Source of the DNA: Zavarzinia marina
GTDB taxonomy: Bacteria > Pseudomonadota > Alphaproteobacteria > Zavarziniales > Zavarziniaceae
Direction of reading: 5' to 3'
Assembly: GCF_021568905.1 (NCBI RefSeq)
Contig: NZ_JAKGSB010000005.1
Span: forward strand, 124,001-188,000
Length of the DNA: 64,000 bases
In this document: positions 1,211 to 12,405 of the stretch, one piece after another
Numbering within the stretch: the first letter of the stretch is position 1
Layout of the letters: each line of letters begins with the position of its first letter
Program-made: the position numbers and the translations under genes
Notes under the pieces: generated by a model
What the model saw: the letters and a program-made list of their open reading frames with translations, nothing else
What the model was told of the DNA's origin: nothing
Database searches by the model: none

Positions 1211-2452
1211 ATGAGCGTGCAACCCGCCAAACGTGACGAGAACCCCGCCACGGCGGGGCGCCGCTTCGCCGGCATCGACGACCTCGGCGACCTTCACGGC
1301 CGCCGGGTCCTGCTGCGGGTCGATCTGAACGCCCCGATGCAGGACGGCGTCGTCACCGACCTGACCCGCCTGCAGGCCAATGCGGTCACCATCAAGGCGC
1401 TGGCCGCCAAGGGCGCCCGCGTCATCGTGCTGTCGCACTTCGGCCGGCCCAAGGGCAAATGGGACGCCAGCCAGAGTCTCCGTCCGGTGGCCGAGGCCCT
1501 GCCCGTGATCATCGGCCTGCCGGTCGCCTTCGCCGCCGACTGCGTCGGCCCCGTGGCCAAGGCCGCGGTGAACGGCATGGCGCCGGGTTCCGTCCTCGTC
1601 CTGCAGAACACCCGCTTCTATCCGGGCGAGGAAGCGAACGATCCCGAGTTCACCGCCCAACTCGCCGAACTGGGCGACGTCTATGTGAACGACGCCTTCT
1701 CCTGCGCCCATCGCGCCCATGCCTCGACCGCCGGTCTCGCGGGGCTGCTGCCCCACGCCGCCGGCATCTGGATGAAGAAGGAACTGGACGCCCTGGAAGC
1801 GGCCCTCGGCAGCCCCAAGCACCCGGTGGTCGCCGTGGTCGGCGGCGCCAAGGTCTCGTCCAAGCTGGACGTCATCGGCAATCTGGTCGGCAAGGTCGAT
1901 CACCTGGTGATCGGCGGCGGCATGGCCAACACCTTCCTCTTCGCCGAGGGCAAGGAGATCGGCAAGAGCCTGGCGGAACGCGAGATGGCCGACACCGCCC
2001 GCGCCATCGTCGAGAAGGCCAAGGCCGCCGGCACCGAAATCGTCCTGCCGGTCGACGGCGTGGTCGCCCGCGAATTCAAGGCCTATGCCGAGAACGAGGT
2101 GGTGTCGGTCGATGCCGTGCCCGAGGACGCCATGATCCTCGACATCGGCCCCGCCTCGATCGAGCGCGTGAAGGCCGTCCTGCGCCAGGCCAAGACCGTG
2201 GTCTGGAACGGGCCCTTCGGCGTCTTCGAGATGGAACCCTTCGATCTCGGCACCAATGCCTGCGCCCGCGAGGCGGCGAAACTGACCCGCGAGGGCAAGC
2301 TGCTGTCGGTCGCCGGTGGGGGCGATACCGTCGCGGCCCTGAACCACGCGGGCGAATGCGAAGCCTTCTCCTTCGTCTCGACCGCCGGCGGCGCCTTCCT
2401 CGAATGGCTCGAGGGTCGGGAACTGCCGGGCGTGAAGGCCCTGGCGAAATGA
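1211..2452 (+). CDS. pgk: Phosphoglycerate kinase
   Basis: The 413-residue protein transfers phosphate from 1,3-bisphosphoglycerate to ADP. It has the family signature RVDLNAP at about residues 36-42, the substrate motif LSHFGRPKG, and the C-terminal nucleotide-binding loop GGGDTVAAL. The start chosen is the ATG at 1211, 11 bases after the gap stop and preceded by GAGGAGAGG. This gives roughly 15 extra N-terminal residues compared with typical 395-400 residue enzymes. A strong intrinsic terminator follows the stop codon directly, so the tkt-gap-pgk transcript probably ends here. Confidence 0.96.
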
Positions 2453-2458
2453 GGACGG

Positions 2459-2490
2459 GCCGGCGGATCTCCCGTCCGCCGGCTTTTTTT
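2459..2490 (+). terminator. Intrinsic terminator after pgk
   Basis: A perfect 9-bp stem (GCCGGCGGA at 2459-2467 with TCCGCCGGC at 2475-2483) has a 7-base loop and is followed by seven T residues at 2484-2490. It begins 6 bases after the pgk stop. It is the clearest rho-independent terminator in the window. Confidence 0.93.
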
Positions 2491-2572
2491 GTGCAGTGCC
2501 GCATGGACGATGCCGCGCCGTCTTGCTAAAAGCGCGGCCATCATTTCAACCCAGTCATTTTCGGGGGACCCC

Positions 2573-3505
2573 ATGACCAAGATCACCAAGAAGGTGAAGG
2601 AAATCCTCTCGTGGTACGAGAGCGACAACCCGGGCACCAAGGCCAATCTTGCCCGCATCCTCGGCGCCGGCCGTCTCGGCGGCACCGGCAAGATGATCAT
2701 CCTTCCGGTCGACCAGGGGTTCGAGCACGGCCCGGCGCGCAGCTTCGCGCCCAACCCGGCCGCCTATGACCCGCATTACCACTTCCAGATGGCGGTCGAC
2801 GCCGGACTTTCGGCCTATGCCTCCGTGCTCGGCATGATCGAGGCGGGCGCCGACAGCTTCGCCGGCCAGATCCCGACCATCCTGAAGGTCAATTCCTCGA
2901 ACAGCCTGTCGCGCGCCAAGGAAGCGCCGGACCAGGCCGTGACCGGCACCGTGAAGGACGCCATCCGTCTCGGCTGCTCGGCCATCGGCTTCACCATGTA
3001 TCCGGGTTCGGACCAGATGTTCGACCAGATGGAAGAACTGCGCGAACTGACCGCCGAAGCCAAGGACGCCGGTCTCGCCGTCGTCGTCTGGTCCTATCCG
3101 CGCGGCGGCAACCTGACCAAGGACGGCGAGCTGGCGATCGACGTCGGCGCCTATGCCGCCCATATGGCCGCCCTGATGGGCGCCCATATCATCAAGGTGA
3201 AGCTGGCCACCGACCACATCGAACAGGGCGAGGCCAAGAAGGTCTACGACAAGCACCCCGTCGACCTCTCGACCCAGGCCGCGCGTGTCCGCCACGTCAC
3301 CCAGGCCTGCTTCAACGGCCGCCGTCTGGTGGTGTTCTCGGGCGGCGCCGCGAAGTCCGAGGATTCGGTCTATGACGACGCCCGCGCCATCCGCGACGGC
3401 GGCGGCAACGGCTCGATCATCGGCCGCAACACCTTCCAGCGCTCGCGCGAGGATGCGCTGGCCATGCTCGACAAGCTGGTCCGCATCTACAAGGGCCAGG
3501 AATAA
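2573..3505 (+). CDS. Class I fructose-bisphosphate aldolase (DhnA/archaeal-type)
   Basis: The 310-residue protein belongs to the class I aldolases of the DeoC/FbaB fold rather than the zinc-dependent class II type. Motifs include [12 protein letters not shown] (about residues 43-54) and [11 protein letters not shown] (about 203-213), where Lys208 or Lys210 should form the Schiff base. The C-terminal GGAAKS and [11 protein letters not shown] segments resemble the family's phosphate-binding loops. The ATG at 2573 is preferred over upstream in-frame starts because the conserved sequence begins there; a GGGGGA stretch lies just ahead. It follows the pgk terminator, so it likely has its own promoter, and it is one base from thiE. 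Confidence 0.93.
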
Positions 3506-3506
3506 C

Positions 3507-4169
3507 ATGGCCGGGGCAGGGGATCGTTCGCGGGACGACGCGCGCCTGCCCTGCCGGCTCTATCTGGTCACGCCGCCCGCCTTCGAGACGAAGGCCTTCG
3601 CCGAAACGCTGAAGGCCGCCCTCGGGGCGGGCGACGTCGCCTGCGTCCAGTTGCGTCTCAAGGACGTGACGGACGACCATATCCTGCGCACCGCCGACGT
3701 CTTGTTGCCGATCGTGCAGGACGCGGGCGCCGCCTTCATCCTGAACGACCGCCCGGATCTCGCCGCCGTGCTCGGCGCCGACGGCGTCCATGTCGGCCAG
3801 GACGACGCGCCCTATGCCGAGGCGCGGCGCCTGGTCGGGCCCGACGCCATCGTCGGCGTCACCTGCCACGACAGCCGTCACCTCGCCATGGAAGCGGGGG
3901 AGGCCGGGGCCGACTACGTCGCCTTCGGCGCCTTCTTCCCGACCGCCACCAAGGATCCCAAGGCCCGCGCGCCCTTCGAGCTGGTGCGCTGGTGGTCCGA
4001 GATGATGACCGTGCCCCAGGTCGCGATCGGCGGCATCACGGTCGAAAACTGCCGCCCCCTGATCGAGGCCGGCGCCGATTTCCTGGCGGTTTCCGCAGGC
4101 ATCTGGCAGCACGCGGACGGCCCCGCCGCGGCGGTCGCCGCCTTCAACGCGATTTTCGCCAGCCCCTGA
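3507..4169 (+). CDS. thiE: Thiamine-phosphate synthase
   Basis: The 220-residue TIM-barrel enzyme couples the thiazole and pyrimidine moieties to make thiamine phosphate. It shows the N-terminal LYLVTPP strand, the pyrophosphate motif [24 protein letters not shown], and the C-terminal AIGGIT loop. The start ATG at 3507 lies one base after the aldolase stop, so the two genes are probably co-transcribed and translationally coupled. A second, more divergent ThiE-like gene is encoded at about 11.1-11.7 kb, so this copy is the likelier true thiE. Confidence 0.93.
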
Positions 4170-5019: not shown

Positions 5020-5880
5020 ATGGCGTTCCGTTCGCCGCTCATCAATGTCATGGCGTCCGCCGCCACCAAGGCCGCCCGCGGCCTGAAGCGCGATTTCGGC
5101 GAGGTCGAGAACCTCCAGGTCTCGAAGAAGGGCCCGTCCGACTTCGTCTCCGTCGCCGACCAGAAGGCCGAGGAAGTGCTGCACGCCGAACTGTCGCGCG
5201 TGCGCCCCGACTTCGGCTTCCTGATGGAGGAGGGCGGCGAGATCGAGGGCAAGGACAAGTCGCACCGCTGGATCATCGATCCCCTGGACGGCACCACCAA
5301 TTTCCTGCACGGCCTGCCGCAATTCGCCATTTCGATCGGTGTCGAGCGCGATGGCGAAATCATCGCCGGCGTCGTCTACAACCCGATCGCCGACGAGATG
5401 TATTGGGCCGAGAAGGGCGCCGGCGCCTATTGCAACGACCGCCGTCTGCGGGTCGCCGCCCGCAAGGACCTGAAGGAATGCGTGATCGCCACCGGCATTC
5501 CCTTCCACGGCAAGGGTGATCACCTGCGTTTCCTGAAGGAATTGGGCCTGATCATGCGCGAGACCGCGGGCATCCGCCGGTTCGGCGCCGCCTCGCTCGA
5601 TCTCGCCTTCGTCGCCGCCGGCCGCTTCGACGGCTTCTGGGAGACCGGGCTGCAGCCCTGGGACGTCGCCGCCGGGATTATCCTGGTGCGCGAGGCGGGC
5701 GGTTTCGTCAGCGACCAGCGGGGCTCGAAGAAGGTGCTGGAGGCACCGGAGATCGTCGCCGGCAACGAAATCGTGCACGAGAAGTTGCGGCGCCTCGTCG
5801 AACGGGCCGGCCTGCCGCCCAAAAAGCCGCGGCCAAAGGCCCAAACAGCGGTTGCGGAGCGGCCCGAGCCCGAGAAATGA
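5020..5880 (+). CDS. Inositol monophosphatase family protein
   Basis: The 286-residue protein carries both metal-binding signatures of the Mg-dependent, Li-sensitive phosphatases: WIIDPLDGTTNF at about residues 85-96 and the late WETGLQPWDVAAG motif. FMEEGGE supplies a further metal ligand. Family members hydrolyse inositol phosphates, and bacterial ones (SuhB, CysQ or histidinol-phosphatase relatives) vary in substrate. The start at ATG 5020 gives the usual N-terminus (SPLINVMASAATKAAR) and follows a CGAGG sequence. The lysine- and proline-rich C-terminal tail of about 25 residues is an extension. Confidence 0.88.
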   Translation: MAFRSPLINVMASAATKAARGLKRDFGEVENLQVSKKGPSDFVSVADQKAEEVLHAELSRVRPDFGFLMEEGGEIEGKDKSHRWIIDPLDGTTNFLHGLPQFAISIGVERDGEIIAGVVYNPIADEMYWAEKGAGAYCNDRRLRVAARKDLKECVIATGIPFHGKGDHLRFLKELGLIMRETAGIRRFGAASLDLAFVAAGRFDGFWETGLQPWDVAAGIILVREAGGFVSDQRGSKKVLEAPEIVAGNEIVHEKLRRLVERAGLPPKKPRPKAQTAVAERPEPEK

Positions 5881-5982: not shown

Positions 5983-7263
5983 ATGAGGGCAGCCACCAGT
6001 GCTCGCGCATTTCACTGCGCCGCCAGAACTGGTGCCTTCTCCGCCAGCGTTTCACCCCGTGGGGTCTCCCTCAAGGCGATCGCCGTCGCCGTCGGCCTGA
6101 TGGGCCTCGGTATCGCGCCGGCCCATGCCGGCGGCAACGAGGAAGACCAGTCCACCCACATCACGGTTCCCGCCCGACCGCATGCCGGCGGCGCCGGCAC
6201 GGGCGGACGGCCGGCCCCGGCGCGCCGCTACGATCCCGCCATCGATTTTCAGACCATCGTGATCGGCGGCGGTTCCGCGCCCGGCGTGATCGTCGACATG
6301 TCGGTGCTGGACGACCTGATGGCACCGCCCCCGCCGCCGCGCCCCCGCGCCGTCGCCCGCCCGGCACCGCGACTGACGCCGCCGCCCGCCCCTGCCGCCG
6401 CCGCTCCGCCTGCTCCCGTCGAACCCGAAATCGCACTGGTCGAGCCTGAGGCGCCGGCGGAAACCGCCGATACCGTGCGGCCGGTGGAAAAGCCCGATCC
6501 TTCGGCGCCCGCCGTCGCGCTGCCGGAACCGGTCGAGCCGGAATCGGTCGCGCCTGAACCGAGCGTCGCCGAGCCTGTCGCGCCCGAGCCCGAACCGGCG
6601 CCGCCGCCCGTCACGATCGACGTCGATACGCCGCGCACCCTGGCGATGATCGAGCTCGGCTCGCGCCTCGGCGAACCGGCCATGGCCGAACCGCCGCCGC
6701 CACCCGCGCCGGAACCAGCACCGCCACCGCCGCCACCGCCCGCCCCGGCGAGTAGCGGACCCACCGACCTGACCGCCGGCCTCCCGGAGCCCGAACCCGA
6801 ACCCGCCCCGCCCGAACCCTTGCCCGAGCCGGAACCCGTGCCCGAGCCGGCGCCGGCAGCGGCACCCGCAACTTCGCCCGCCCCAGCCCCGACCACGGCG
6901 GCCGCCGCCGTTCCGGCCCCGGCCGTCGCCGGGCGCGGCGGCCTGCCGTCGGTCGCCAAACAGGTGACCCAGGTGGCGTTCGCCACTTCCGGCGATGCGC
7001 TGGACGACGACGGGCGGGCCGCGCTCGATGCCGTCGTCGAACAGTTGAAGGAGCCCGGCGGGCGCATCCTGGTGCGCGGTTTCGCCAGCGGCACCAATGA
7101 CACCGCGACCGGGGCGCGGCGCCTGTCGCGCCAGCGCGTGCTGGCGGTCCGCACCTATCTGATCGAGAAGGGCGTGCCCGCGACGCTGATCGACCTGCGC
7201 GCCGTCGGCATGGCGCCGGACGCGCCGGTCGCCGACGGTGTCGACATCGCCATCATGCCCTGA
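5983..7263 (+). CDS. Proline-rich OmpA-like periplasmic protein
   Basis: The 426-residue protein has a long N-terminal export signal ending in AHA at about residue 49. A Pro/Glu/Ala-rich, low-complexity region of roughly 230 residues follows (about 90-320). A C-terminal OmpA-like module spans about 325-426, with ILVRGFASGTND and RRLSRQRVLAVRTYLIEKGV. The module lacks the strict NxxLSxxRA peptidoglycan signature, so wall binding is inferred. A spanning Pro/Glu linker is typical of proteins that cross the periplasm. It is followed by a MotA/ExbB-like and a MotB-like gene in the same direction. The start has AAGGGG just upstream. Confidence 0.75.
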   Translation: MRAATSARAFHCAARTGAFSASVSPRGVSLKAIAVAVGLMGLGIAPAHAGGNEEDQSTHITVPARPHAGGAGTGGRPAPARRYDPAIDFQTIVIGGGSAPGVIVDMSVLDDLMAPPPPPRPRAVARPAPRLTPPPAPAAAAPPAPVEPEIALVEPEAPAETADTVRPVEKPDPSAPAVALPEPVEPESVAPEPSVAEPVAPEPEPAPPPVTIDVDTPRTLAMIELGSRLGEPAMAEPPPPPAPEPAPPPPPPPAPASSGPTDLTAGLPEPEPEPAPPEPLPEPEPVPEPAPAAAPATSPAPAPTTAAAAVPAPAVAGRGGLPSVAKQVTQVAFATSGDALDDDGRAALDAVVEQLKEPGGRILVRGFASGTNDTATGARRLSRQRVLAVRTYLIEKGVPATLIDLRAVGMAPDAPVADGVDIAIMP

Positions 7264-7356
7264 TCGCCGGTCTTCCCCGCCGTGATGGCCCGGCCCTGAC
7301 GGTCCGGCCGGGTGACGGGGCCGCCGAGGGGCCGAAACCCTGGGGAACGACCTGAG

Positions 7357-8484
7357 ATGAACGTCGATCGCTATCTGCTCCGCATGACGCTCTTCCTGCT
7401 GGCGATCGCCGGTCTGGTGGTGTTCCTGCTGGCCCCGGCGAGCCGTTTCTTCGCCACCAACGTCGCGCTGAATTCGGTGATCATCGCCGTCGCCCTGCTG
7501 GGCGTCGTCTACATGCTGCGCCAGGTCCTGGAACTGCGGCCCGAGGTGCGCTGGTTCGAGCGCCTGACCGCCCAGGACGTCAATCTGGCCGAAGTGCCGG
7601 CGCCCGACCTGATGGGCCCGATCGCCGCCGCCATGACCGAGAAGCGCGGCGCCCGCTGGCAGCTCGGCCCGACCGCCACCCGTGCCCTGGTCGACGGTCT
7701 CGCCGCCCGCCTCGACGAGAAACGCGACATCGGCCGCTATCTGGTGCAGGTGCTGATCTTCCTCGGCCTGCTCGGCACCTTCTGGGGCCTGCTGTCCACC
7801 GTCTCCTCGATCGGGGAGGCGATCCGCAACCTCAATATCGCCGGCGGCGGCGACTTCACCGCCATGTTCGGCGAATTGAAGCGCGGGCTGGAGGCGCCGC
7901 TGTCGGGCATGGGCACGGCCTTCTCGTCCTCCCTGTTCGGCCTGTCGGGTTCCCTCATTCTCGGCTTTCTGGAACTTCAGGCGAGCCAGGCCCAGGGCCG
8001 TTTCCTGGGCGAGGTCGAGGATTATCTGACCGCCAATACGCGCCTCGGCGGCACGGCGGCGATGGAGGGCGAGACCGGCGCCGGCGTACCCGCCTATGTC
8101 TCGGCCCTCCTCGAATCGACGGCCGAAAGCCTCGATCGCCTGCAACGCACCATGGCCCATGCCGAAGAGAACCGGGTGACGGCCAACGACGCCCTGGTCA
8201 ATCTGACCGAGCGCCTGGCGACGCTCGCCGCCCAGATGCGGGCCGAACAGGAACTGATGGTGCGCATCGCCGAAGCCCAGATGGAATTGAAGCCGGCCCT
8301 GCAGCGGATCGCCCAGGCCCAGACCGCCCCGGCCCTGGACGAGGCGAGCAAGGCCCATCTGCGCAATCTCGACACCGGTATCGCCCGCCTGACCGAAGGC
8401 CAGCGCGCCGGCCTCGACGAAGTGGCGGCCCAGGTGAAGATCCTGACCCGCACCATCGCCGCCATGGCCGCCGAGGAGCGCTGA
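7357..8484 (+). CDS. MotA/TolQ/ExbB-like inner-membrane channel protein
   Basis: The 375-residue protein has four predicted membrane segments, at about residues 11-27, 36-54, 129-150 and 181-205. The last two carry the channel-family pattern: LGLLGTFWGLLSTVSS, then PLSGMGTAFSSSLFGLSGS. A long hydrophilic helical tail (206-375) follows. The fold is that of the proton-channel subunits of flagellar stators and Ton/Tol systems. ATG 7357 is preferred to a GTG 45 bases upstream because the membrane sequence begins at once. No flagellar genes lie nearby; the partner is the MotB-like gene one base downstream. Confidence 0.82.
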   Translation: MNVDRYLLRMTLFLLAIAGLVVFLLAPASRFFATNVALNSVIIAVALLGVVYMLRQVLELRPEVRWFERLTAQDVNLAEVPAPDLMGPIAAAMTEKRGARWQLGPTATRALVDGLAARLDEKRDIGRYLVQVLIFLGLLGTFWGLLSTVSSIGEAIRNLNIAGGGDFTAMFGELKRGLEAPLSGMGTAFSSSLFGLSGSLILGFLELQASQAQGRFLGEVEDYLTANTRLGGTAAMEGETGAGVPAYVSALLESTAESLDRLQRTMAHAEENRVTANDALVNLTERLATLAAQMRAEQELMVRIAEAQMELKPALQRIAQAQTAPALDEASKAHLRNLDTGIARLTEGQRAGLDEVAAQVKILTRTIAAMAAEER

Positions 8485-8485
8485 C

Positions 8486-9517
8486 ATGGCGGCGCGCAGC
8501 CGGCGCTTTCGCGACCGCGGCGGACCCGACATCTGGCCCGGCTTCGTCGATGCCCTGGCGACCCTGCTGCTGGCCATCACCTTCCTGCTGTCGGTCTTCA
8601 TGCTGGCCCAGTTCTTCCTGGGTCAGGCCCTGTCCGGACGGGACGAGGCCCTGGCCCGCCTGAACCGCCAGATCGCCGACCTGACCGATCTGCTGGCCCT
8701 CGAACGTCAGGCCAACGCGGAATTGCGGCTTTCGGTCTCCAGCCTTTCGAGCGGCATCGAAAGCGCCAACGCCGAGCGCGATACCCTGCGCGACCGGTTG
8801 CGGGACCAGGAGTCCGACGCCGCCGGCCTCGAAGGACGGGTCGAGAGCCTGACCGCCGAACTGGACCGGGAGAAGGCCCTGACCGCCGATGCCCAGGCCC
8901 AGGTCGATCTCCTGAACCGGCAGTTGGCCGAGCTGCGCATCCAGCTGCAGGAAATCGCCGCCATGCTCGATCAGGCCGAGGCGGCGGACCGCGAGAGCCA
9001 GGCCGTGATCGCCGACCTCGGCCGAAGGCTCAATCTGGCGCTCGCCTCCAAGGTCGAGGAACTGGCGCGCTATCGCTCGGAATTCTTCGGGCGCCTGCGC
9101 GAGGTGCTGGGCGAGCGCAAGGATGTGCGCATCGTCGGCGACCGCTTCGTCTTCCAGTCAGAGGTGCTCTTCGCCTCGGGCTCGGCCGAAATCGGGGAGG
9201 GCGGACAGCAGACCCTGGCGCGCTTCGCCGCGACCCTGAAGGAGATCGCCGCCGAAATCCCGGACGACCTGCCGTGGATCCTGCGGGTCGACGGCCATAC
9301 GGACGTCACGCCGATCAATTCCGCGCTCTATCCCTCGAACTGGGAATTGTCGACCGCGCGCGCGGTCGCCGTCGCCAAATTCCTGATCGCGGAAGGCCTG
9401 CCCCCCAACCGCCTGGCCGCAACCGGCTTCGGCGAGTTCCAGCCCCTCGATCCCGAGAACACGCCGGAGGCGCTGGCCCGCAACCGGCGCATCGAGCTGA
9501 AGCTGACGGAACGGTGA
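8486..9517 (+). CDS. MotB-like stator protein with OmpA/peptidoglycan-binding domain
   Basis: The 343-residue protein has a short basic N-terminus and one membrane segment at about residues 23-47. A coiled coil follows (about 48-190), then an OmpA/MotB C-terminal domain (about 215-343) with VDGHTDVTPI, NWELSTARAVAVAKFL and RNRRIELKL. The sequence WPGFVDALATLLL at residues 17-29 resembles the stator proton-carrier motif, making Asp22 the candidate protonatable residue. It begins one base after the upstream channel gene stop, so the two are co-translated. Together they look like a proton-driven stator unit of unknown role. Confidence 0.85.
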   Translation: MAARSRRFRDRGGPDIWPGFVDALATLLLAITFLLSVFMLAQFFLGQALSGRDEALARLNRQIADLTDLLALERQANAELRLSVSSLSSGIESANAERDTLRDRLRDQESDAAGLEGRVESLTAELDREKALTADAQAQVDLLNRQLAELRIQLQEIAAMLDQAEAADRESQAVIADLGRRLNLALASKVEELARYRSEFFGRLREVLGERKDVRIVGDRFVFQSEVLFASGSAEIGEGGQQTLARFAATLKEIAAEIPDDLPWILRVDGHTDVTPINSALYPSNWELSTARAVAVAKFLIAEGLPPNRLAATGFGEFQPLDPENTPEALARNRRIELKLTER

Positions 9518-10702: not shown

Positions 10703-11116
10703 ATGGCCCATTGGCTGGTGAAATCGGAACCCGGCGCCTGGTCCTGGGACGATCAGGTGCGCGACGGCACCACCTTCTGGTCGGGCGTGCGCAACTATCA
10801 GGCGTCCAACAACCTGAAGGCCATGAAGAAGGGCGACCGCTGCTTCTTCTACCATTCGGTCAACGAGAAGCGGATCGTCGGCGTCGTCGAAGTGGTGAAG
10901 GAATATTATCCCGACCACACGGACGAGAGCGGGCGCTTCGGCATGGTCGACGTCAAGGCGGTGAAACCCCTGAAGACCCCCGTCACCCTGGAGCAGGTGA
11001 AGGCCGATCCGCGCCTCAACCACCTCGCCCTGGTGAAGCAGTCCCGGCTCTCGGTGATGCCGGTCGACGACGAGGCCTGGACGGTGATCTGCGAGTTGGG
11101 CGGCATCAAGGCCTGA
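10703..11116 (+). CDS. EVE domain-containing protein
   Basis: The 137-residue protein is a stand-alone EVE domain (PUA-like fold). It has WLVKSEPGAWSWDDQ, FWSGVRNYQASNNLKAMKKGD and FFYHSVNEKRIVGVVEV. EVE domains bind modified bases in DNA or RNA; the target of this common bacterial type is not established. It starts one base after the YciI gene and its stop overlaps by 11 bases the stop of the convergent ThiE-like gene. Confidence 0.92.
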   Translation: MAHWLVKSEPGAWSWDDQVRDGTTFWSGVRNYQASNNLKAMKKGDRCFFYHSVNEKRIVGVVEVVKEYYPDHTDESGRFGMVDVKAVKPLKTPVTLEQVKADPRLNHLALVKQSRLSVMPVDDEAWTVICELGGIKA

Positions 11117-11714
11117 TGGCCTCGAGCCCGAGGGCACCGATCGCCGCCACGCCGACGATGCCGCTGCCGGCGAGGCGCGGCGCCGTCACCCCGTCGACGC
11201 CGCCGAGGGCATAGACGGGCATGCCCGCCCGCCGCGCCAGTCCCGCGAAGCGGACGGGCCCGAGAGATTCCGCCCCCGGATGGCTGGCGGTCGGGAACAC
11301 CGGCGACAGGAAGACGGCCGCGACACCGGCACGCCGCGCGCGCATAAGCGCCTTTTGGCTGTGGGCGGCGGCGGTGGCGAATCCCCGCACACACATCGGC
11401 AGGCGTTTTTCCGGCCAATGGACGCCCGCCGCGCCGATCCGCCGGGCTAGGCCGGCATCTCCCGACACCAGCAGGCGCAGACCCCGGGACCGGCACACCT
11501 CCGACAATGCCCGGCCGAGCACCAGCCGTGCCGCCGCCGGCAGATCGCCGTCGCGCAGCACCACCAGGCTGCCCCGGGGCAGGGCCGCCGCCGCCGCCAG
11601 GGGATCGGGCAGGCGCGCGCGATCCGTCAGCAGGACGAGGGGCGGCAGAACACCGCGCGCATGATGGCGGGCATTGAGGCGGCGGGCGGCGGTTGCTAGC
11701 TTCTGGTCCATCAT
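11106..11714 (-). CDS. ThiE/TenI-like thiamine-phosphate synthase paralogue
   Basis: The 202-residue protein has a TIM-barrel ThiE/TenI pattern but is divergent from the copy at 3.5 kb. It has PPLVLLTD, AAGVHWPEK in place of VHVGQDD, FLSPVFPTASHPG and a final VYALGGV loop. The pyrophosphate-binding residues are only partly kept, so it may be a TenI-like or specialised protein rather than the biosynthetic enzyme. The start is one of two tandem ATGs (11714 or 11711). Either start codon touches that of the divergent yggS gene, so no separate intergenic promoter space exists. Confidence 0.78.
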   Translation of the reverse strand: MMDQKLATAARRLNARHHARGVLPPLVLLTDRARLPDPLAAAAALPRGSLVVLRDGDLPAAARLVLGRALSEVCRSRGLRLLVSGDAGLARRIGAAGVHWPEKRLPMCVRGFATAAAHSQKALMRARRAGVAAVFLSPVFPTASHPGAESLGPVRFAGLARRAGMPVYALGGVDGVTAPRLAGSGIVGVAAIGALGLEAIRP

Positions 11715-12405
11715 GTCGTCCGAATCCGAACAGACCATCGCCGACCGTCTCGCCCATGTCGAGGCGCGGATCGCCAAGGCCTGCCGCGCCACCGGCCGCG
11801 ATCCGGCCGAGGTGCGCCTGATCGCCGTCTCCAAGACCCATGATGCCGACGCCGTGCGCGCCGCCCTGGCGGCCGGCCACCGCGTCTTCGGCGAGAACCG
11901 GGTGCAGGAGGCGGAAGGCAAATTCCCCGCCCTGAAGGCTGAATATCCCGATCTGGAACTCCATCTGATCGGGCCGCTGCAGACCAACAAGGCGAAGGAT
12001 GCGGTCGCCCTGTTCGACGTCATCGAGACCGTGGACCGGGAAAAGCTGGCGGCCGCCATCGCCGCCGCCTCGGAAAAGACGGGTCGGCGTCCGCGCTGCT
12101 TCGTCCAGGTCAACACGGGGGAGGAACCGCAGAAGGCCGGCTGCCTGCCGGCGGCGGCGGACGCCCTGATCGCCGCCTGCCGCATCACCCATGGCCTCGA
12201 CGTCGTCGGCCTGATGTGCATTCCACCGATCGACGACGAGCCGTCGCTGCATTTCGCCCTGCTGCGCAAGATCGCGGCGCGGAACGGGCTGCACCAGCTT
12301 TCCATGGGCATGTCCAGCGACTATGAGATCGCGGTCCGCCAGGGCGCCACCCAGGTCCGGGTGGGGACGGCCATCTTCGGCCAGCGCGACTATTCCGCCG
12401 GGTGA
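11713..12405 (+). CDS. YggS family pyridoxal phosphate-binding protein (PLPBP)
   Basis: The 230-residue protein is a fold-type III PLP-binding protein involved in vitamin B6 homeostasis. The cofactor lysine is in LIAVSKTHDADAV (about residue 40). Other motifs are FGENRVQEAEGK, HLIGPLQTNKAK, VNTGEEPQKAG and the phosphate-binding LSMGMSSDYEIAV near the end. ATG 11713 is the start because no other in-frame start precedes the conserved region. It overlaps the ATG of the divergent ThiE-like gene within the palindrome CATG. Its 3' end overlaps that of the convergent YkuD gene by 16 bases. Confidence 0.93.
   Translation: MSSESEQTIADRLAHVEARIAKACRATGRDPAEVRLIAVSKTHDADAVRAALAAGHRVFGENRVQEAEGKFPALKAEYPDLELHLIGPLQTNKAKDAVALFDVIETVDREKLAAAIAAASEKTGRRPRCFVQVNTGEEPQKAGCLPAAADALIAACRITHGLDVVGLMCIPPIDDEPSLHFALLRKIAARNGLHQLSMGMSSDYEIAVRQGATQVRVGTAIFGQRDYSAG

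Follow-up and report, generated by a model that had tools for sequence, protein, structure and literature searches.

To which ion-driven machine do a pair of stator-like genes in Zavarzinia marina belong, and what might that machine do for the cell? Within the 64,000-nucleotide stretch of DNA analysed here (the window; positions 124,001 to 188,000 of contig NZ_JAKGSB010000005.1, called C13 below, of a 3.95 Mb genome), four consecutive genes on the + strand encode a SuhB-like protein, an exported proline-rich protein (proOmpA), a membrane channel protein (the A subunit, hereafter the channel) and a single-helix protein with an OmpA-like domain (the B subunit, hereafter the anchor) (Table 1). 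We think it probable that channel and anchor form a peptidoglycan-anchored, ion-driven inner-membrane motor of the MotA/ExbB type with a core housekeeping role in the envelope or in division, and that proOmpA is a separate, optional modulator. The original prediction for this stretch had described three co-directional genes, two of them one base apart, and the open reading frame (ORF) calls agree: the anchor ORF runs from ATG 8486 to TGA 9517 (343 residues), beginning one base past the channel stop at 8484, and the proOmpA ORF from ATG 5983 to TGA 7263 (426 residues, 20% proline). For the channel, the mechanical ORF opens at GTG 7312, but homologue N-termini align to the ATG at 7357. The closest named relative is a Zavarzinia metagenome-assembled genome, with 86% identity in the anchor.

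Hydropathy peaks of the channel lie at residues 7-25, 36-58, 129-147 and 187-205. Its predicted model (structure models of both channel and anchor are of monomers) has a pLDDT (predicted local distance difference test) of 80.8, with helices at 3-23, 36-71, 105-158 and 167-226 and a helical tail at 246-374; the four-helix MotA/ExbB-type channel with a long helical tail had thus been read correctly. In alignment, the tail is shorter in homologues from the Hyphomicrobiales. Comparison of the channel model using VIA-align matched TolQ at Z 12.3 (root-mean-square deviation 3.9, 192 residues aligned), ExbB at 12.2, ZorA at 11.3 and MotA at 9.8, and the top 23 rows all belonged to the MotA/TolQ/ExbB superfamily, ahead of any unrelated chain. 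Since helical bundles can match by shape at such Z scores, the fold call rests on the consistency of these rows and on the sequence motif, not on Z. Alignments to TolQ, ExbB and ZorA start from channel residue 22-30 and those to most MotA chains from residue 1-7; because only the MotA alignments take in the first transmembrane helix (TM1), the topology of the channel is probably MotA-like. As modelled, then, the channel shares the core fold of the superfamily, although at 15.2 bits it falls below the Pfam MotA_ExbB (PF01618) gathering cut-off of 22.9. Among 120 channels, Thr141 is invariant, Ser192 is kept in 119, and Thr148 and Pro181 are each kept in 118.

The anchor is a full-length member of NCBIfam NF006543 (466.2 bits against a cut-off of 305, residues 5-343). 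NCBIfam names NF006543-NF006546 / PRK09039 'peptidoglycan-binding protein' and the channel partner 'MotA/TolQ/ExbB proton channel family protein', and we found no function or system described in the literature under the PRK09039 name. Hydropathy gives a single TM at residues 23-41, and the predicted model consists of a long helix with a break at about residue 110, then the OmpA domain (residues 228-334, Pfam E 3.4e-18), the model of which matches the MotS periplasmic domain at Z 20.3 and ZorB at Z 16.3. Pfam, model and hydropathy therefore all bear out the MotB-type anchor first proposed, with a single helix, Asp22 in WPGFVDALAT, a coiled coil and an OmpA domain. Loss of Asp22 among homologues had been named beforehand as a point that would count against this idea; of 123 anchors, 122 have the aspartate, and the sole exception is a protein that has no TM. 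The peptidoglycan contacts are equally constant (His271 and Arg292 in 123/123, Asp273 in 122/123, Asn285 and Asn333-Arg334-Arg335 each in at least 121/123), so that, judged from sequence, the OmpA domain keeps all conserved contacts. In Zorya, function depends on the equivalent Asp, which lies packed against a ring of Ser/Thr residues, and on the peptidoglycan contacts (PMC11890865). Among the relatives we also noticed anchors enlarged to 450-1260 residues by a longer coiled coil, and second anchor-like copies without a channel (family f23, for example in genomes G580 and G474; loci L185 and L188).

Profile searches set the channel apart from the stators already known. A profile built from 31 channels (alignment A1) gives its own members 220-480 bits, and nothing else exceeds 24 (ZorA-like proteins 24, ZorA and MotA 16, TolQ 12). 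Using hhalign, the channel profile gave 90% for a ZorA-like protein, 64% for TolQ, 63% for ExbB, 60% for ZorA and 22% for MotA, in each case over the TM core only and against comparison profiles that are small or single-sequence. Outside its own family, the best matches of the channel are the ZorA models of PADLOC (43.5 bits); these too are limited to the TM core (channel 127-323 of 375 against ZorA model 109-276 of 683), and no full-length ZorA with its long tail was recovered. Pfam and NCBIfam searches found neither a curated TolQ or ExbB match for the channel nor an ExbD/TolR domain in the anchor. No MotA model was matched at curated cut-offs, the best MotB-type model reached 106.7 of the 283 bits required, and flagellar MotB aligns to the anchor over residues 165-340 only, with 30% identity. 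By these profiles, which place the channel in none of TolQ, ExbB, MotA or ZorA, channel and anchor are a discrete family, and the original suggestion of a stator-like pair that is neither flagellar nor part of TolQR or ExbBD is borne out. The host genome carries TolQRA, ExbBD-TonB and MotAB at separate loci, which makes the pair its fourth stator-like system. Of 41 genomes, 40 have TolQ, so the pair as a replacement for Tol was ruled out. Flagellar MotA (MotA1 over cut-off) was scored in 14 of the 24 genomes that have the anchor and in 9 of the 17 that lack it; a flagellar stator was ruled out on this lack of co-occurrence.

Likeness to the known systems is nevertheless considerable. The pair resembles MotA/MotB in the four TMs of A, the Asp in the B helix and the OmpA domain of B; it differs in having no MotA-family score or link to flagellar genes, and in a long coiled coil where MotB has a plug and linker. 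To ZorA/ZorB, the closest outside match of the channel by profile, it is similar in joining an A subunit with a cytoplasmic helical tail to a B subunit with a TM Asp and a peptidoglycan-binding OmpA domain, whereas its tail is much shorter, no zorC/D/E lies among the 10 neighbours scanned, the locus is a housekeeping one and the family is separate. With TolQ/TolR and ExbB/ExbD it has in common the core motif GLLGTFWGL and the fold (Z 12) of the channel, but the channel has four TMs where theirs have three and the anchor carries OmpA instead of a TolR/ExbD domain. Of the features that a 5:2 ion-driven motor would show, the pair has a conserved Asp in the helix of B (Asp22) and a Thr/Ser ring in A (Thr141, Thr148, Ser192). 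According to a 2025 survey of stators, B subunits outside the flagellar systems have no homology to OmpA (PMC12505986), a statement to which this non-flagellar anchor family would be a counter-example.

How widespread is the pair, and what company does it keep? Among 289 alphaproteobacterial genomes, 184 have the channel (own-family hidden Markov model), 180 the anchor, 179 both and 185 either. Channel and anchor are adjacent in 37 of 40 class regions and in all 81 loci first compared, so their pairing is not chance. Across 398 genomes of the phylum, those with full-length anchors outside the class number six and come from three families; in the five non-alphaproteobacterial loci examined, the pair is adjacent with no conserved third gene. 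A strongly divergent pair, scoring 59 bits for the channel and 89 for the anchor, was seen behind a proOmpA-like gene at 1792-3540 of locus L193 (genome G032), so strict cut-offs undercount the family. The gene order gap-pgk-fba-thiE-(sel1)-(efp)-suhB-(proOmpA)-channel-anchor is repeated across the class, suhB stands upstream of the pair in about 66 of 81 loci, and Sinorhizobium meliloti carries suhB-channel-anchor with PRK09039-type annotation. This context is vertical housekeeping synteny. A phage search gave no matches to the pair, plasmid matches were confined to records of 3.5-4.6 Mb resembling chromosomes, and a PADLOC scan of 10 neighbouring proteins found no defence gene, zorC/D/E included; together with the independence from flagellar MotA, this agrees with the expectation of a pair that has no flagellar or Zorya partners. 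TolQ and the channel lie within about 30 kb of each other in 8 of 10 genomes that have both on one contig, and in the host the Tol operon is about 18 kb upstream of the channel (C13, 113503-114153). Two records of S. meliloti deserve mention in their own right. CP090106.1, of 3.7 Mb and labelled plasmid pSymB, has rpmE, purE and the housekeeping locus, and seems to be a chromosome under the wrong label. A transposon-sequencing study (PMC5929573) reports smc03995 as essential, confirmed by targeted knock-out; by its numbering this gene may perhaps lie in or near the present locus.

The proOmpA gene behaves differently from the pair. Its product is exported, proline-rich and OmpA-like at its end (Pfam OmpA, residues 333-416, E 2.5e-10), as had been predicted, but the proline stretch is highly variable among homologues and the OmpA-like end is degenerate. 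Homologues have a signal peptide, then a short conserved segment and a proline-rich spacer that varies, and carry ARRLSLSRALAVRSYLIEKGVRSTRIDVRALG in their C-terminal domain; the signal peptide is of the cleavable type and not a TM anchor. Set against the contacts of the anchor in 36 homologues, His is replaced by Tyr or Phe in 35, Thr by Ala in 33, Asp is kept in 4 and Asn/Arg 333-334 are absent, while Arg292 is kept in all 36; with the His, Thr, Asp and Asn/Arg contacts lost, canonical peptidoglycan binding seems unlikely. One proOmpA-like protein (L186, genome G008) has a Lys/Glu-rich helical spacer where others have a proline-rich stretch, so the type of spacer is not a conserved feature. 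The gene is present in 122 of 185 stator genomes, an enrichment with an odds ratio of 3.8 that is not corrected for phylogeny, and missing from 63. It also occurs in up to 35 genomes scored stator-negative at strict cut-offs, an upper limit because G032 is known to hold its divergent pair, and in most of the stator-negative regions fetched (ten loci) it follows suhB with no pair after it. Most loci outside the Hyphomicrobiales have proOmpA directly upstream of the pair; Hyphomicrobiales loci lack it, and none adjoins the five non-alphaproteobacterial pairs. To judge from the stator-negative and pair-only loci, proOmpA goes with suhB no less than with the motor, which makes it an optional companion. 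The expectation that the three genes stay together across alphaproteobacteria therefore failed, and a fixed three-gene cassette was ruled out by proOmpA behind suhB without the pair and by the bare pair outside the class. A tie between the longer channel tail and proOmpA was likewise rejected, as some short-tailed channels also have proOmpA.

Evidence on function comes from Komagataeibacter hansenii, a host without flagella in which motA and motB are neighbouring genes encoding a four-TM A protein of 348 residues and an OmpA-type B protein of 321 (PMC6570709, PMC6315621). This MotB is 46-48% identical, over 95-99%, to proteins of Rhizobium gallicum, Rhodospirillum centenum and Magnetospirillum (PMC6570709, PMC6315621). 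Because the identity is full-length, whereas flagellar MotB matches the anchor only in part, it points to the PRK09039 family. Adjacent genes, a four-TM A, an OmpA-type B closest to PRK09039-type proteins and the absence of flagella all resemble our pair, although the genes are named as motility genes in their papers; they are very likely homologues, as judged from published identity values and not from an alignment. Overexpression of motA/motB gave elongated, chained cells with septa, and GFP (green fluorescent protein) fusions gave polar or bipolar signals; E. coli was unaffected (PMC6570709, PMC6315621). The original prediction had held that the job of the pair was unknown, which was nearly right, save that overexpression data do exist for this very likely homologue. 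Taken together with the housekeeping context, these data make a role in the envelope or in division the likeliest reading, held with moderate confidence.

In the motor that we propose, channel and anchor would act as one inner-membrane, ion-driven unit, perhaps a 5:2 assembly, tethered to peptidoglycan through the OmpA domain of the anchor, with ions passing between Asp22 and a polar ring that Thr141, Thr148 and Ser192 form in the channel. MotAB and ZorAB, known motors that likewise join a cytoplasmic tail in A to an intact wall anchor in B, have their output on the cytoplasmic side. If the analogy with them holds, the anchor, bound to the wall, would stay fixed while the channel ring and the tail below it move, in which case the output would be expected at or inside the inner membrane and not across the periplasm. 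Such a motor would most likely work at poles and septa, in the growth of the envelope or in cell division, and proOmpA would be an optional periplasmic modulator apart from it. Gene content, conservation, fold class and co-occurrence are what the analysis shows, whereas ion flow, the 5:2 assembly, the direction of force and the role in the cell are inferred. Several points weigh against this proposal. The bridge to K. hansenii runs through those published values; the envelope or division role leans on overexpression in one species, which can mislead; and the same overexpression strains also spread faster on soft agar, with colony spreading tripled (PMC6570709). About one third of alphaproteobacteria, Caulobacter (among the controls) included, do without the pair, which is therefore not a universally essential system, and its closeness to tol may be just ancestral gene order.

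Three other explanations have to be set against the proposed two-protein motor. The pair might instead drive proOmpA in a three-gene envelope machine that carries force over the periplasm, either to the wall or to the outer membrane, as TonB or TolA would, and a force transmitter is what the proline-rich protein had been taken for. Its place directly upstream of the pair in most non-Hyphomicrobiales loci, its enrichment in stator genomes (with the reservation on phylogeny given above), and its conserved segment and proline-rich spacer would suit that task. Yet the gene is optional: 63 stator genomes do without it, as do the pairs outside the class, and it persists in the 35 genomes scored stator-negative and behind suhB where no pair follows. 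Moreover, a protein exported by a signal peptide has no inner-membrane tether, and the His, Thr and Asp contacts of its OmpA domain are lost. The force transmitter thus found no support, and we regard the three-gene machine as unlikely.

An alternative flagellar stator or surface-motility motor would explain the four TMs, the MotB-like anchor and the increased spreading of K. hansenii (PMC6570709). We hold this to be quite improbable, since that host is flagellum-less, Z. marina has a separate MotAB, the pair stays under every curated MotA/MotB cut-off and its presence has no link to that of flagellar MotA. Defence of the Zorya type was ruled out by the family gap, the context and the lack of effectors, and there is very little to recommend a degenerate or ancestral version of it, a ZorA/ZorB-like sensor of wall damage: the layout of an A tail with a peptidoglycan-binding B is the same and the best outside matches are ZorA models and a ZorA-like protein, but these matches span the TM core only, ZorA-like proteins score far below the range of the family itself, and the neighbourhood is vertical housekeeping synteny without mobile elements and, among the 10 neighbouring proteins scanned, without defence genes.

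Table 1. Positions of the features of the locus, numbered from the first letter of the window.
Feature	Position	Strand	Basis or remark
suhB-like inositol monophosphatase	5020..5880	+	Pfam PF00459; conserved upstream neighbour, outside the motor
proOmpA, whole gene; product exported and rich in proline, its OmpA-like domain degenerate	5983..7263	+	optional companion of the pair
proOmpA, conserved segment behind signal peptide (TIVIGGGSAPGVIVDMSVLDDLM)	6253..6321	+	(V)IGG..V.VD..VLD.LG in most homologue N-termini, by eye
proOmpA, degenerate OmpA-like domain	6979..7230	+	lacks His/Thr/Asp and the first Asn-Arg of the motif that binds peptidoglycan; retains the Arg292 equivalent
Channel (A subunit), 375 residues; MotA/TolQ/ExbB superfamily, four TMs and a helical tail in the cytoplasm	7357..8484	+	ORF, homologue-aligned start, fold match, family hidden Markov model
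Channel TM3, with invariant Gly140-Thr141; Thr148 just past it	7741..7797	+	hydropathy, conservation
Channel TM4, with Ser192; Pro181 ahead of it	7915..7971	+	conservation
Channel cytoplasmic helical tail, residues 246-374	8092..8478	+	model, heptad-like periodicity 3.5, alignment
Anchor (B subunit), NCBIfam NF006543 / PRK09039; a single TM, then a coiled coil and an OmpA-like domain of the peptidoglycan-binding type	8486..9517	+	
Asp22 codon, candidate ion-binding aspartate of the anchor TM, within WPGFVDALAT	8549..8551	+	
Anchor coiled-coil linker, residues 47-208	8624..9109	+	model, periodicity 3.5-3.55; confidence dips near 100-112
Anchor OmpA-like domain, GHTD, Asn285, Arg292 and NRR residues intact	9167..9487	+	Pfam PF00691, conservation

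Two further genes of the window resemble thiamine-phosphate synthase, one at 3498-4169 beside suhB and one, TenI-like, at about 11106-11700 on the - strand, which adjoins a YggS-like gene at 11674-12405.

To conclude, we propose a peptidoglycan-anchored ion-driven motor as the probable product of the channel and anchor genes. More tentatively, the pair could represent a further class of such motors beside MotAB, TolQR, ExbBD and ZorAB, core to most alphaproteobacteria, whose cytoplasmic tail would act on polar or septal envelope growth and whose optional OmpA-like modulator would no longer bind peptidoglycan; this fuller picture is possible, and we would not yet lean on it. If the motor is real, most alphaproteobacteria, plant symbionts included, would hold one more ion-driven envelope motor, so far annotated as 'flagellar' or as a generic 'proton channel'. 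It would correct the statement that non-flagellar B subunits lack OmpA homology (PMC12505986), and it would offer a testable handle on the coupling of wall and inner membrane in pole-growing bacteria.

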